From contig NZ_JACIJS010000002.1 of NCBI RefSeq assembly GCF_014199445.1, forward strand, positions 124,001 through 188,000: a stretch of DNA of 64,000 nt, read 5' to 3'. This document shows positions 46,262 through 51,219 of the stretch, in pieces (position 1 is the first letter of the stretch; each line of letters opens with the position of its first letter). Source of the DNA: Rubricella aquisinus (GTDB lineage: Bacteria; Pseudomonadota; Alphaproteobacteria; Rhodobacterales; Rhodobacteraceae). The notes beneath the pieces are model-generated. The model was not told the origin of the DNA and did no database searches. It was given only the letters and a program-made list of their open reading frames with translations. A program made the position numbers and the translations under genes.

Positions 46262-47571
46262 GCGACCCCATTTTGACGCGTACCGCCGTCCTGCATCCCG
46301 ACCTCAAAACCGGGAGAGAACGGCGTGCGCCTGAACACGCCCTTGAAGAAGCGGTCAGCCTTGCGCATGCCCTGAGCGGGCTTGAGGTTTGTGACGCGCG
46401 TGTCGTTCCGCTGAAAAATCCGCGGGCAGGAACACTATTCGGAAGCGGTAAGGTCAAGGAAATCAAAGACCTGCTTGAAGGTCTTGACGTGACACTCGTG
46501 GTCATTGATGGCCCCGTGACACCTGTCCAGCAGCGCAATCTGGAAAAGGAATGGAACGTCAAAATCCTTGATCGCACGGGTCTGATCCTTGAGATTTTCG
46601 CGGATCGGGCAGGGACACGCGAAGGGGTTTTGCAGGTCGATCTGGCCGCGCTCAATTACCAGCGCACGCGACTTGTCCGGTCCTGGACGCACCTTGAGCG
46701 GCAGCGCGGTGGACTTGGATTTGTCGGTGGCCCTGGTGAAACCCAGATCGAGGCGGACCGCCGCGCGATTGACGAGCAGATCGTCGTGATCCGCCGCCAG
46801 CTTGAAAAAGTGACGCGGACGCGCGGGTTGCACCGGTCGGCGCGCAAAAAGGTGCCATTTCCCATTGTCGCGCTTGTCGGCTATACGAATGCTGGAAAAT
46901 CAACGCTTTTCAACCGGTTAACCGGCGCGGATGTGATGGCCAAAGACATGCTTTTTGCCACGCTCGATCCGACCATGCGGACGGTGGAATTGCCCGATGG
47001 CCCGAACGTGATCCTCAGCGACACGGTTGGCTTCATCTCTGATCTGCCGACGGAGCTGGTCGCGGCGTTTCGCGCGACGCTGGAGGAAGTCCTCGATGCC
47101 GATCTGATCCTGCACGTACGCGACATCTCCCATCCTGAGACGGAGGCGCAAGCCGCCGATGTGCGCGACATCCTCGACAGTCTTGGTGTGACAGAAACGA
47201 AACGCGATGCGATGATTGAGGTCTGGAACAAGATTGACCTCATTCCGCAAGAGGATCGCGCAGCGGCGCTGAATGTCGGCAATCGCAAGGCGCATGTGCA
47301 GCCGCTCTCCGCGATCACGGGTGAAGGGCTGGACGCGCTCATCTCTGCGATTGATGTGGCACTGCGGCCGGTGGAGATTGAGGATGAATTGCAGATGAGC
47401 CACGCGGCGGGGGAAGCAATGGCCTGGCTTCATGCACGCAAGCTCATACAATCCGTCGCCACGGATGAGCATGGCAACACGGTTCTTGTGAAGTGGTCGG
47501 ATAAGCAAAAACGTCAGTTTGCCAAGCAGTTTCCAGCCATTCTTACACTACCGGACGATATATATATTTAA
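46258..47571 (+). CDS. hflX: GTPase HflX
   Basis: Ribosome-binding GTPase that splits stalled ribosomes under stress. About 437 residues: N-terminal HflX domain ([25 protein letters not shown]), then [14 protein letters not shown] and [13 protein letters not shown], and the G domain with G1 [10 protein letters not shown]3 DTVGF and G4 NKID. Start choice: the frame holds no ATG or GTG near the N terminus. A CTG at 46258 overlaps the hfq stop (CTGA) and has GGAGG exactly seven bases upstream, giving [18 protein letters not shown] at 46273 is the other option but has no ribosome binding site at suitable spacing. hfq-hflX order is conserved in Proteobacteria. Confidence 0.95.
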
Positions 47572-47677: not shown

Positions 47678-48415
47678 ATGGCACAACGCCCCAATCCCAA
47701 TCGCCGCGTCAAACGGCCCCGGCAAAGTTTGCTCCAGCGGTTTCGCGGTAACTTCCTGACCGGGCTTGTCATCGTCGCTCCCGTTGGATTGACGATCTGG
47801 GTCGTGTGGTCCGTCATCACGTTGATTGATGCGCAGGTCGTGCCGCTGGTGCCAGCGTTCTACAACCCGTCGACCTATCTTGGAAATGACGTGCCGGGGT
47901 TCGGCGTCATCATCTTTTTCCTGTTCACGGCAGTTGTGGGCTCTTTGACCAAGGGGTTGGTTGGTCGGCGTATCCTGTCCTGGGCAGAGCACGTCGTGGA
48001 TCGCCTGCCCCTCGTGCGCTCCATCTATAACGGGATCAAGCAGATCGCGGAGACGATCCTGAACCCGTCCAACACCAGTTTTCAAAAAGCGGCGCTGATC
48101 GAATATCCCCGACGGGGCATTTGGGCGGTGGCGTTCGTCTCGACGGAGACAAAGGGTGAAGTCGGCCAAAAACTGCCCGAGGATGAGAATGTCTCCGTGT
48201 TTCTGCCCACGACACCCAACCCCACGTCGGGTTTTCTGCTGTTCGTGCCGCGCAGAGATCTGGTGATCTTGGATATGGAAGTGGAGGATGCGGCGAAGCT
48301 CATCATCTCCGCAGGGCTGGTAACGCCCCCTACCCCGGCAGAGAAAGCCGCCGGGGTAAAGACCGTGTCGAAAGAGACTATTCGGAAGATTCGCTCCACC
48401 AAACGTCCGGCATAA
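47678..48415 (+). CDS. DUF502 membrane protein
   Basis: 245-residue inner-membrane protein of the DUF502 family. Basic N-terminal tail (1-22), two membrane helices (about 27-50 and 74-95), and the conserved cytosolic block SWAEHVVDRLPLVRSIYNGIKQIAETI (pieces WAEHVVDRLPLVRSIYNG and IKQIAETI), LIEYPRRGIWAVAFVS and PTTPNPTSGFLLFVP. Function not established; plant homologues are called COV. The 106-base gap before it is AT-rich (TATATATATTTAAC near 47560), probably holding its promoter. The 3' end overlaps the convergent binding-protein gene by 38 bases. Confidence 0.9.
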   Translation: MAQRPNPNRRVKRPRQSLLQRFRGNFLTGLVIVAPVGLTIWVVWSVITLIDAQVVPLVPAFYNPSTYLGNDVPGFGVIIFFLFTAVVGSLTKGLVGRRILSWAEHVVDRLPLVRSIYNGIKQIAETILNPSNTSFQKAALIEYPRRGIWAVAFVSTETKGEVGQKLPEDENVSVFLPTTPNPTSGFLLFVPRRDLVILDMEVEDAAKLIISAGLVTPPTPAEKAAGVKTVSKETIRKIRSTKRPA

Positions 48416-50165
48416 AGCCGATCCAATCGCCGTAAATCGGCAGCGCCTCCGGGAAGGTGAGGCTGCTGTCATGGGCAATGCGGCTGACGGGGATGAACCA
48501 GAACGGGATGGTGTAGCGCCCCGCCGTGAGTGTGCGGTCAAGCGCACGGGTGGCCGCCACGAATTCCTCATTCGTGCTGGAGGTCAAGATCGCGTCGATC
48601 ATCGCATCCACCGCCGGGCTGTTGACGCCCATATAATTGCGCGTGCCCGGCGTCTCCACCCCTTCAGCGCCCCAATAGAACCGCTGTTCATTGCCAGGGC
48701 TGAGCGACAGGGACCAGCGATTGACGATCATGTCGTAGTCATAGGCATTGCGCCGCTCGGTATATTGCGCGCCATCAATCAGGTTGATCTCCACCTCAAT
48801 CCCAAGCCGGGTCAGCGCATCGGCATAAATATTGGCGATGGCTTCATTCGCGGTGGAACGGAGCAGGATTTCAAAGCGGAACGGCTCGCCCTCTGCATTC
48901 ACCAATGTCCCACCGTCGATGGTCCATCCGGCCTGTTCAAGAAGCGCCGTTGCCTTCCGCAGGTTACGCCGATTGCGCACGTCGCCGGTGGATTTCGGGA
49001 GCGCATAGCCTTCCAGCGTGCCGGGCAACAGATCATCGGCATAAGGTTCAAGCAGGGCCAGTTCCAGCCCCGTCGGCACGCCTTCATAGGCCAGTTGCGA
49101 ATTGGCGAAATAGCTGGTGATGCGCGGATAGGCGCTCTCATTCAGGCGGTCATTGATCCATTCGAAATTGAACGCGAGGATCAGCGCCTCCCGCACCCGC
49201 CAGTCTGAAAAGATGTCTTTGCGGGTGTTGAACACAAATCCGTTCATCCCCGAGGGCCGCTGGTGTGGCACGACGCTTTGCGCGATTTCGCCCCGCTCTG
49301 CCCGGCCAAATGTGTATTCCTCCCGCCATTTGGTGATGTTGCCCTCGCGGAAAATGGAGGTTTCCCCGGCGGTAAACGCCGTCCAGACAGCAGCCGCATC
49401 CCCGAAGAAATCATAGCGGATGGTATCAAGGTTATGCCGCCCCTTGTTGAACGGCAGATCGGCGCCCCAGTAATCGGGATCACGATCAAATTCGATATAT
49501 CGGTTCGGCTCAAAATCCCCGATCACATAGGGGCCAGAGGCGATGAGGGGCCTTGTGGTCGACTCAGCGAAATCCTGCCCTTCCCAATCCGCTTTCTTCA
49601 GAATCGGGCGTAGGCCGAGGATCAGCGGCAATTCCAGATCACCGCCCGTCAGATTGAACCGGACGGAGCGCTCGCCCGTCTGCTCCCAGCTTTCCACCTT
49701 GTCCCAGGAGGAGCGGAAATTCGGGCGGCCCTGCTCGGCCAGAATCTCCATCGACCAGACCACATCCTCCACGGTGACGGGACTACCGTCCGAAAACCGG
49801 GCGGCGGGGTTCAGCGTGAATTCGACCCATTCGCGATTCGGGCCGGTCTCGATGGTTTCCGCGAGCAGACCGTAGAGCGAGAAAGGCTCATCCCAATTCC
49901 GCCCCATCAGCGATTCGACCACATGCGCCTGCACGCCCCACGGGCTGCGTCCTTTGATGATATAGGGGTTGAGACTGTCGAACCCGCCGGTCTCCCCAAA
50001 AACGATTTCACCCCCTTTGGGCGCGTCTGGATTGGCGTATGGCAGGTGCTCAAACCCCTGCCCGAGTGCCGGATCGCCATACATGGCGATGCCGTGCTGT
50101 GGTTCGGCAAAGGCCGCGTTGCCTGCCAAAAGCGCGGCGGAGAGTGTCAGGAAAAGCCGTGTCAT
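48378..50165 (-). CDS. YejA-type ABC transporter substrate-binding protein
   Basis: 595-residue periplasmic solute-binding protein of family 5 (oligopeptide/YejA-like). Signal peptide MTRLFLTLSAALLAGNAAFA, then GIAMYGDPALGQGFEHLPYA, PDAPKGGEIVFGETGGFDSL, FSDGSPVTVEDVVWSME and the C-terminal YDYDMIVNRWSLSLSPGNEQ, all typical of YejA. The ATG at 50165 is used; an extension to 50234 is unlikely. No permease or ATPase genes (yejBEF) adjoin it, so it is either an orphan receptor or partners with a distant transporter. Peptides or peptide-like antibiotics are the likely ligands. Confidence 0.92.
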   Translation of the reverse strand: MTRLFLTLSAALLAGNAAFAEPQHGIAMYGDPALGQGFEHLPYANPDAPKGGEIVFGETGGFDSLNPYIIKGRSPWGVQAHVVESLMGRNWDEPFSLYGLLAETIETGPNREWVEFTLNPAARFSDGSPVTVEDVVWSMEILAEQGRPNFRSSWDKVESWEQTGERSVRFNLTGGDLELPLILGLRPILKKADWEGQDFAESTTRPLIASGPYVIGDFEPNRYIEFDRDPDYWGADLPFNKGRHNLDTIRYDFFGDAAAVWTAFTAGETSIFREGNITKWREEYTFGRAERGEIAQSVVPHQRPSGMNGFVFNTRKDIFSDWRVREALILAFNFEWINDRLNESAYPRITSYFANSQLAYEGVPTGLELALLEPYADDLLPGTLEGYALPKSTGDVRNRRNLRKATALLEQAGWTIDGGTLVNAEGEPFRFEILLRSTANEAIANIYADALTRLGIEVEINLIDGAQYTERRNAYDYDMIVNRWSLSLSPGNEQRFYWGAEGVETPGTRNYMGVNSPAVDAMIDAILTSSTNEEFVAATRALDRTLTAGRYTIPFWFIPVSRIAHDSSLTFPEALPIYGDWIGFMPDVWWSESSE

Positions 50166-50243: not shown

Positions 50244-50272
50244 TTGGGTTTTCTGCGGTGGTTCAGTATGTT
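50244..50272 (+). promoter_or_regulatory. Predicted promoter of the small RNA candidate
   Basis: TTGGGT (50244-50249) and TATGTT (50267-50272) are 17 bases apart. A start of transcription would be expected at about 50279. It lies back to back with the promoter of the binding-protein gene. Confidence 0.4.
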
Positions 50273-50278
50273 GATGTT

Positions 50279-50354
50279 ACTGCTCGATAGGTTTCTAGCC
50301 TGTATGAAACCTGCCTCAATAACTTGCGCCCTCCTTCGTGGAGGGCGTTTTTTT
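50279..50354 (+). ncRNA. Candidate small regulatory RNA or bdhA leader
   Basis: A strong + strand terminator stands in a gap where no + strand gene lies upstream for nearly 2 kb, so a short transcript is implied. The predicted RNA is about 75 nt: a first hairpin with 7-bp arms AGGTTTC (50289-...50295) and GAAACCT (50306-50312, 10-nt loop), an unpaired CTCAATAACTTG linker, then the terminator stem with a seven-base T-tract. This is the layout of Hfq-dependent small RNAs, and the terminator stem contains an anti-Shine-Dalgarno-like CCCTCC. The alternative is an attenuated leader of bdhA, whose ATG lies 80 bases further. Not recognised as a known family. Confidence 0.5.
50327..50354 (+). terminator. 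Rho-independent terminator upstream of bdhA
   Basis: 8-bp perfect stem (CGCCCTCC at 50327-50334, GGAGGGCG at 50340-50347), 5-nt loop TTCGT and seven T (50348-50354). The reverse strand lacks a T-tract, so it acts on + strand transcription only. Confidence 0.9.
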
Positions 50355-50433: not shown

Positions 50434-51219
50434 ATGTCCCTAAACGGAAAAGTTGCCGTTATCACTGGCTCAAACTCGGGTATCGGGCTGGGCGTTGCCG
50501 AAGAATTGGCCAAGGCGGGCGCCACGGTCGTGCTCAATTCCTTTACCGATCGGGATGAGGACCACGCACTTGCAGCAGAGCTGGCTGAGCGGACCGAAGG
50601 CCGCGCCATCTATATCAAGGCGGATATGTCAAAAGCCGATGAATGCCGCGCCCTGATCGACCAAACCGTGGAGCGGTTCGGAAGTGTCGACATCATCGTC
50701 AACAACGCAGGCATCCAGCATGTCGAAGGGATCGACACTTTCCCGACCGAAAAATGGGATGCGATCATCGCGATCAACATGTCGAGCGCGTTTCACACCA
50801 CGGCCGCTGCCCTGCCCCATATGCGCAAGGCCGGCTGGGGACGTGTGGTCAATATCGCCTCTGCCCACGGGCTGACCGCCTCTCCCTATAAATCGGCCTA
50901 TGTGGCGGCAAAACATGGCGTCGTGGGCATGACTAAGGTTGTGGCGCTGGAAACCGCGCAGGAGCCGATCACGGCGAATGCGATCTGCCCCGGCTATGTG
51001 CTGACCCCATTGGTCGAATCGCAAATCCCCGACACGATGAAGAAATACGATATGGACCGCGAAACGGTGATCAAACAGGTGATGCTGGAGCGCCAACCGT
51101 CCAAGGAATTTGCCACGACAGAGCAGATCGGCGGCACCGTCGTGTTTCTGTGCTCGGATGCGGCAACGCAGATCACCGGCACGACAATCAGCGTTGATGG
51201 CGGCTGGACCGCACTTTGA
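50434..51219 (+). CDS. bdhA: 3-hydroxybutyrate dehydrogenase
   Basis: Short-chain dehydrogenase that oxidises (R)-3-hydroxybutyrate to acetoacetate with NAD, part of polyhydroxybutyrate breakdown. 261 residues: cofactor motif ITGSNSGIGLGVAEE, NNAGIQHVEG, catalytic Ser-Tyr-Lys in NIASAHGL and SAYVAAKHG, and the family-specific CPGYVLTPLVESQIPD and C-terminal ISVDGGWTAL. The start at ATG 50434 has GGAGG eight bases upstream; earlier in-frame codons cross the terminator and are rejected. The stop overlaps the next gene by four bases. Confidence 0.95.
   Translation: MSLNGKVAVITGSNSGIGLGVAEELAKAGATVVLNSFTDRDEDHALAAELAERTEGRAIYIKADMSKADECRALIDQTVERFGSVDIIVNNAGIQHVEGIDTFPTEKWDAIIAINMSSAFHTTAAALPHMRKAGWGRVVNIASAHGLTASPYKSAYVAAKHGVVGMTKVVALETAQEPITANAICPGYVLTPLVESQIPDTMKKYDMDRETVIKQVMLERQPSKEFATTEQIGGTVVFLCSDAATQITGTTISVDGGWTAL

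Follow-up and report, generated by a model that had tools for sequence, protein, structure and literature searches.

A probable StsR-type small RNA, near-invariant in Rhodobacteraceae, upstream of bdhA in Rubricella aquisinus

The intergenic region upstream of bdhA

The window analysed here is the whole stretch of 64,000 nucleotides taken from contig NZ_JACIJS010000002.1 of Rubricella aquisinus (positions 124,001 to 188,000). Within it, a gene for a solute-binding protein and the gene bdhA are divergently oriented, and the gap between them holds a promoter-like element, a predicted small RNA and its terminator (Table 1). By direct reading, the sequence TTGGGT (50244-50249) is separated by a 17-base spacer from TATGTT (50267-50272), the strands AGGTTTC (50289-50295) and GAAACCT (50306-50312) enclose a 10-nt loop containing GCCUGUAU, and a hairpin at 50326-50348 is followed by seven T up to 50354. 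An earlier sequence-only reading of this DNA had reported the same promoter-like pair, hairpin and terminator, and its description was correct base for base. It had also called the terminator an orphan, which agrees with our finding that no + strand genes end just upstream of the RNA other than mechanical ORFs antisense to the binding-protein gene, and it had rightly placed an Hfq gene about 4 kb away.

The predicted RNA (ACUGCUCGAUAGGUUUCUUGCCUG..., 50279-50354) folds at −27.7 kcal/mol with a z of −4.2, a value that none of 200 shuffles equalled. Between 48000 and 53000 we counted six terminator-like sites against 4.8 (sd 2.2) expected, the longest stem among them being that of the small RNA terminator (9 pairs, 7 of them GC), while a consensus scan of the same interval returned no sigma-70 promoter against 1.5 expected. 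Pattern scans by themselves are no proof of the putative small RNA, and the weight of the case rests on its conservation.

Table 1. Features of the window around the predicted small RNA.
Feature	Position	Strand	Basis
hfq, 79 aa	46022..46261	+	Pfam Hfq E 1e-33, ORF
hflX, after hfq	46273-47571	+	HflX domains
Extracellular solute-binding protein family 5, divergent gene	48378..50165	−	Pfam SBP_bac_5 E 7.7e-62
Predicted promoter	50244..50272	+	TTGGGT at −35, TATGTT at −12; RpoH-type signature TTG/TAT
Probable StsR-type small RNA, ~72-76 nt	50279..50354	+	family matches, 57-row alignment (A2), fold z
Stem-loop 1 (AGGTTTC / 10-nt loop / GAAACCT)	50289..50312	+	fold and alignment
Predicted pairing stretch, RNA nt 20-37	50298..50315	+	complementary to mraZ (UpsM) leader
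Intrinsic terminator	50326..50354	+	variable stem sequence, 7 pairs with compensatory changes
bdhA, 3-hydroxybutyrate dehydrogenase; neighbour, outside the RNA	50434..51219	+	TIGR01963 375 bits, over cut-off

Conservation of the RNA and its promoter

A 122-base query running from the predicted start matched 290 of the 295 genomes of the family, and 259 of the 260 that are at least 90% complete and at most 5% contaminated. The five genomes lacking a match are 71-90% complete, and one of the 290 matches (G154) is weak and disappears with a shorter query. Among the matches listed, most begin at base 1 and end at about base 76-95, with 81-95% identity. A 39-base core was found in at least 118 stretches of named genomes, including Ruegeria pomeroyi, Leisingera, Roseovarius and Sulfitobacter; these loci were collected with a 39-base exact pattern, which means that positions 4-43 of the RNA, except 19, are fixed by selection. 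The 5' ACT start lies outside that search pattern and is present in 118 of the 118 matches listed. At the exempted position 19 (50297), the window strain carries an A where 118 of the 118 matches listed have a T.

A second alignment (A2) was less selected, yet also seeded from matches to the small RNA. It was drawn from 169 RNAs (122 of them unique) as 58 picks that include the most divergent sequences at hand; with L232 (wrong strand) and L046 removed and the window added, it has 57 rows. Across these 57 sequences the first 40 nt are almost invariant. Six of the seven pairs of stem 1 never vary and the remaining pair is broken in one sequence, and since this stem barely varies it yields no evidence of covariation; we infer that it is under a double constraint, imposed by its own stem and by a target. 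The terminator stem, on the other side, shows compensating changes at 7 pairs, and conservation stops at the T run within the 82 nt aligned. The motif CCCTCC, to which the sequence-only reading had ascribed pairing with Shine-Dalgarno sequences, does lie in a stem as stated, that of the terminator; the proposed role was rejected, for the sequence of this stem is variable and the conserved part of the RNA is its 5' 40 nt.

Covariance searching, one of the checks that the same reading had suggested, gave model scores of 97-107 bits in the four family genomes listed, and no score above 33 bits in the other 285 genomes of the class. Twenty-four of those 285 gave model matches with E ≤ 0.01 (24-33 bits). 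We took them for background, as the 24 examinable of their 26 loci (24 genomes) match a 37-nt core at 17-22 of 37 positions, against 14-19 with one shuffle each. By covariance model and core match, then, the small RNA was not found beyond the family among these 285 genomes. A cmscan of the whole window against Rfam returned no match at the gathering threshold although 290 of the 295 family genomes match, so the small RNA looks like an Rfam family that is still missing.

The promoter was compared in the 114 of the at least 118 loci that had enough flanking sequence, which together with the window make 115 rows. Among the matches listed, the majority bases of these rows are TTGG at −35 to −32 and TATAAA at −12 to −7, and TTGGGT and TATGTT of the window fall on these positions in the same register. 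The R. sphaeroides RpoHI/HII consensus has TTG at −35 and TAT at −12 (PMC10673084, in the legend of its Figure 1). By this sequence signature alone, TTG at −35 and TAT at −12, the promoter of the small RNA fits the RpoHI/RpoHII type. A conserved A/T-rich block, TTTTCAAACTTTTAG, adjoins the −35 element at −51 to −37 in the 114 relatives (among the matches listed) and is weak in the window strain; perhaps it is an UP element or the site of a regulator.

These comparisons agree with the sequence-only reading, which had predicted a ~75-nt RNA from about 50279 and had proposed conservation of promoter, hairpin and terminator as a check: the matches cover nearly the whole family, the 5' boundary is sharp, the promoter is conserved with its TTGG/TATAAA register kept, and the terminator changes in a compensating manner. 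Judged by its sequence, the small RNA is very probably real, a near-unchanging regulator of ~72-76 bases in almost every Rhodobacteraceae genome examined.

Complementarity to the mraZ leader

We searched the RNA by BLAST against genome G050, which we take to be R. sphaeroides 2.4.1; it is the only one of the 295 genomes over the SorY cut-off, and we counted this as support for that identity. The search gave 16 matches. The best is the ortholog of the small RNA, located at 1444 kb, which measures 68 nt plus a U tail when counted on the sequence from the conserved A start to the end of the intrinsic terminator. Another match was at chance level (E 3.17) and lay ~220 bases upstream of mraZ, and because of it we tested pairing between the RNA and the mraZ leader.

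The sequence GCAGGCTTCATACAGGC occurs in the mraZ leaders of both G050 and the window's genome; it complements the RNA over 17 of 18 nt in a register that covers RNA nt 20-37 in the window's genome and 19-36 in G050. The parts of the RNA that would pair are the loop and the 3' strand of the stem. Allowing up to 3 mismatches, the window's genome holds the complement in two places only, the gene of the RNA and the mraZ leader (C3:346989-347007). Duplexes with a 50-nt piece of the leader were predicted at −34.5 kcal/mol for the window's genome and −38.4 kcal/mol for G050, and in both genomes the duplex beats 500 of 500 shuffles by a margin of ~1 kcal/mol.

We then scored the site in 30 mraZ leaders of the family, which are the best-scoring MraZ matches and not a random sample. 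A perfect 16-nt complement is present in 20 of the 30 and at least 14 of the 16 positions match in 24, while the controls reached at best 13 positions in 3000 shuffles, 12 in downstream sequence and 11 on the antisense strand. Scored with the C-variant of the site, 24 of the 30 leaders match at 15 or more of 18 positions, against at most 14 in shuffles. The relatives mostly carry a T-variant that is perfectly complementary to the RNA. The site of the window's genome, at G000:C3:346990-347006, is a C-variant, with one C mismatch to the RNA; its exact form was found in 12 of the 295 genomes (the window's and 11 others), and a reversed-pattern control in none.

A second set of 15 leaders was picked by hand, nine for their divergent RNAs, five for the C-variant site and one other. 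Eight of them match at 15 or more of 19 positions and two are partial at 14 (G226, G236). Five lack a good site: G028, G058 and G101, whose RNAs have altered loops, and G008 and G193, whose RNAs are intact. No pairs of compensatory changes between RNA and leader were seen in this set. Since five of these 15 leaders have no good site and two have a partial one, UpsM is not the sole reason why the RNA is kept. The leader of mraZ and the dcw cluster is the best candidate target that we found.

Identity of the RNA and its possible role

In R. sphaeroides this leader is the source of UpsM (RSs0682), an sRNA of 206 nt that starts 268 nt upstream of mraZ and is cut by RNase E to 130 nt, a processing that needs Hfq and either RpoHI or RpoHII (accessible text of PMC5089854). 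Its partner StsR, formerly RSs0827, is described in the accessible parts of PMC8307010 as a 72-nt, Hfq-associated RNA controlled by RpoHI/RpoHII that binds UpsM and the rpoE mRNA and promotes the cleavage of UpsM by RNase E. The pairing lays open a site for RNase E, which then cuts UpsM and the dcw leader, and expression of the cell-division genes falls in stationary phase and under stress, as the excerpts of PMC8307010, PMC11354728 and PMC8625941 have it; RSs0827 is induced by iron limitation and in late singlet-oxygen stress, according to the passages available from PMC3413700 and PMC3688512.

The RNA of the window shares with StsR a length of about 72 nt, its nature as an orphan intergenic RNA, the RpoHI/HII-type promoter signature and a stretch complementary to UpsM next to the part of the dcw leader that RNase E processes. 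Counting from the published start of UpsM and the mraZ start that we read at 694904, the site in G050 corresponds to about nt 54-70 of UpsM, and it would lie just 5' of an RNase E cut at about nt 76, a position deduced from the lengths (206 nt to 130 nt). In the 2.14 Mb of G050 chromosome 1 that we covered (67%), nine loci combine TTG-N19-21-TA with a terminated RNA of 50-95 nt, and only the ortholog of the small RNA pairs with UpsM over more than 12 nt (17 nt); this filter was devised after the small RNA was known and its scope is that 67% of one chromosome. The host genus and the terminator sequence differ from StsR; in the copy of the window, loop nt 19 is changed from T to A, and its UpsM site carries one C mismatch. 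Motif scans for rpoE, with whose mRNA StsR is reported to pair near the start codon, did not locate this gene in the sequence covered, and some of the patterns were probably too strict. On comparison with the published description of StsR, we hold with good confidence that the StsR-type sRNA of this Rhodobacteraceae species is encoded here.

One apparent mismatch concerns map position. We placed CcsR-type motifs at 691.7-692.4 kb of G050, UpsM (RSs0682) at ~695 kb and SorY at ~1633 kb; CcsR and SorY carry the numbers RSs0680 and RSs1543. The RSs numbers seem to follow map position, and by this rule, which we deduced from these three anchors, RSs0827 would be expected near 850 kb, whereas the ortholog lies at 1444 kb. 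This would favour a different account, in which the RNA is another, unstudied family-wide sRNA with the UpsM leader as a shared pairing partner, and the true StsR sits at another place, in R. sphaeroides near 850 kb. Scanning 780-900 kb of G050 we found four terminator candidates, the best of which could pair with the 5' part of UpsM over 11 nt, a further point for this account. This strong terminator, at ~858,060-858,137 on the + strand of G050:C4 (L301:18060-18137), follows a gene that by eye resembles rlmB. No TTG/TAT promoter was seen at this candidate, however, and only the small RNA, among the nine loci mentioned above, joins promoter, length and 17-nt pairing. We regard this account as unlikely; if it were true, UpsM would be a hub of two small RNAs governing Rhodobacteraceae cell division. 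In a weaker version StsR may have a further conserved target, as UpsM alone explains neither why the 5' end (ACUGCUCGAU), which falls outside the UpsM site, is invariant nor why the RNA persists where no UpsM site is visible.

Far less credible is that the element is an attenuated leader of bdhA, an alternative already raised by the sequence-only reading. The RNA and bdhA are on the same strand, with 80 nt from the terminator to the ATG, and bdhA lies downstream of the RNA in 86 of the 106 loci with room; in 78 of them it is no more than 400 bases away. The adjacency is not universal, though: in the other 20 bdhA was undetected in the 1.3-7.4 kb downstream while the RNA was kept, and for this reason we consider the RNA independent of bdhA. 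The divergent solute-binding gene adjoins it in 103 of the 108 loci with room, across a gap of 114-158 bases. Conservation ending with the T run also speaks against a leader, as does the predicted pairing of the RNA with the start region of bdhA (−26.0 kcal/mol), which 56 of 200 shuffles equalled and which is thus at chance level. The same two results, the chance-level pairing and the loci without a detected bdhA, leave unsupported the suggested tie to storage-carbon use: we found no link between the RNA and this neighbour.

Membership in the alpha-r8 family (MmgR/suhB, SisA-D; PMC12559287, in the portion available), with control of PHB storage, is barely conceivable: the RNA shares with MmgR/suhB (RF00519) a two-hairpin layout and an alphaproteobacterial host, has bdhA, a PHB-related gene, as a neighbour, and gave with this family the lowest E-value of six sub-threshold Rfam matches (E 0.006 on 311 nt), yet it scores 23.9 bits against a gathering score of 41, and within the window's genome its locus is of background rank (E 0.0149) while a true member stands elsewhere at 68.2 bits. 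That MmgR/suhB RNA, over the Rfam cut-off, is located outside the window at G000:C1:610561-610637 on the + strand (L170). SorY (RF02651), likewise a short terminated RNA of the same bacteria, was rejected because the score of 19 bits falls far below its gathering score of 111, the best SorY-like match of the genome being elsewhere (G000:C7:224775-224863, − strand). SorY-like RNAs reach E ≤ 0.001 in 279 of the 295 family genomes, one of them over the gathering score, and SorY may be far more widespread than the Rfam cut-off admits. The conserved 'intergenic 134' of Paracoccus is probably another RNA, as relatives of it are also reported from Actinobacteria.

Returning to the StsR-type RNA, its anatomy, family-wide conservation, promoter signature and conserved complementarity, as read from the sequences, are consistent with the following model. 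The RNA would be expressed from the promoter with the RpoH-type signature, presumably in an RpoH-dependent manner in this species too, as a ~72-76-nt transcript made of a 5' stem-loop, a linker and the terminator, and it may bind Hfq. The exposed 10-nt loop with GCCUGUAU would begin to pair with GGCAGGCUUCAUACAGGC in the long mraZ leader (the UpsM region of the dcw cluster), and the pairing would then extend into the 3' strand of the stem and open the hairpin. As with StsR in R. sphaeroides, an RNase E site would be exposed, the UpsM/dcw leader cut and the expression of the cell-division genes lowered.

In the terms that we searched, the accessible text of a published Ruegeria sRNA study makes no mention of the small RNA, and a search on RSs1368 found nothing. 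A literature search combining StsR and Rhodobacterales, whose scope left out most subscription journals, found no paper; family-wide conservation of the small RNA may already be in print.

The perfect site in 20 of the 30 leaders points to an ancient origin, across much of the Rhodobacteraceae, of the StsR-UpsM circuit that has been elucidated in R. sphaeroides. An orphan terminator at first linked by guess to storage carbon would in this way lead to a specific and testable circuit, in which a small RNA may license the cleavage of the cell-division leader.
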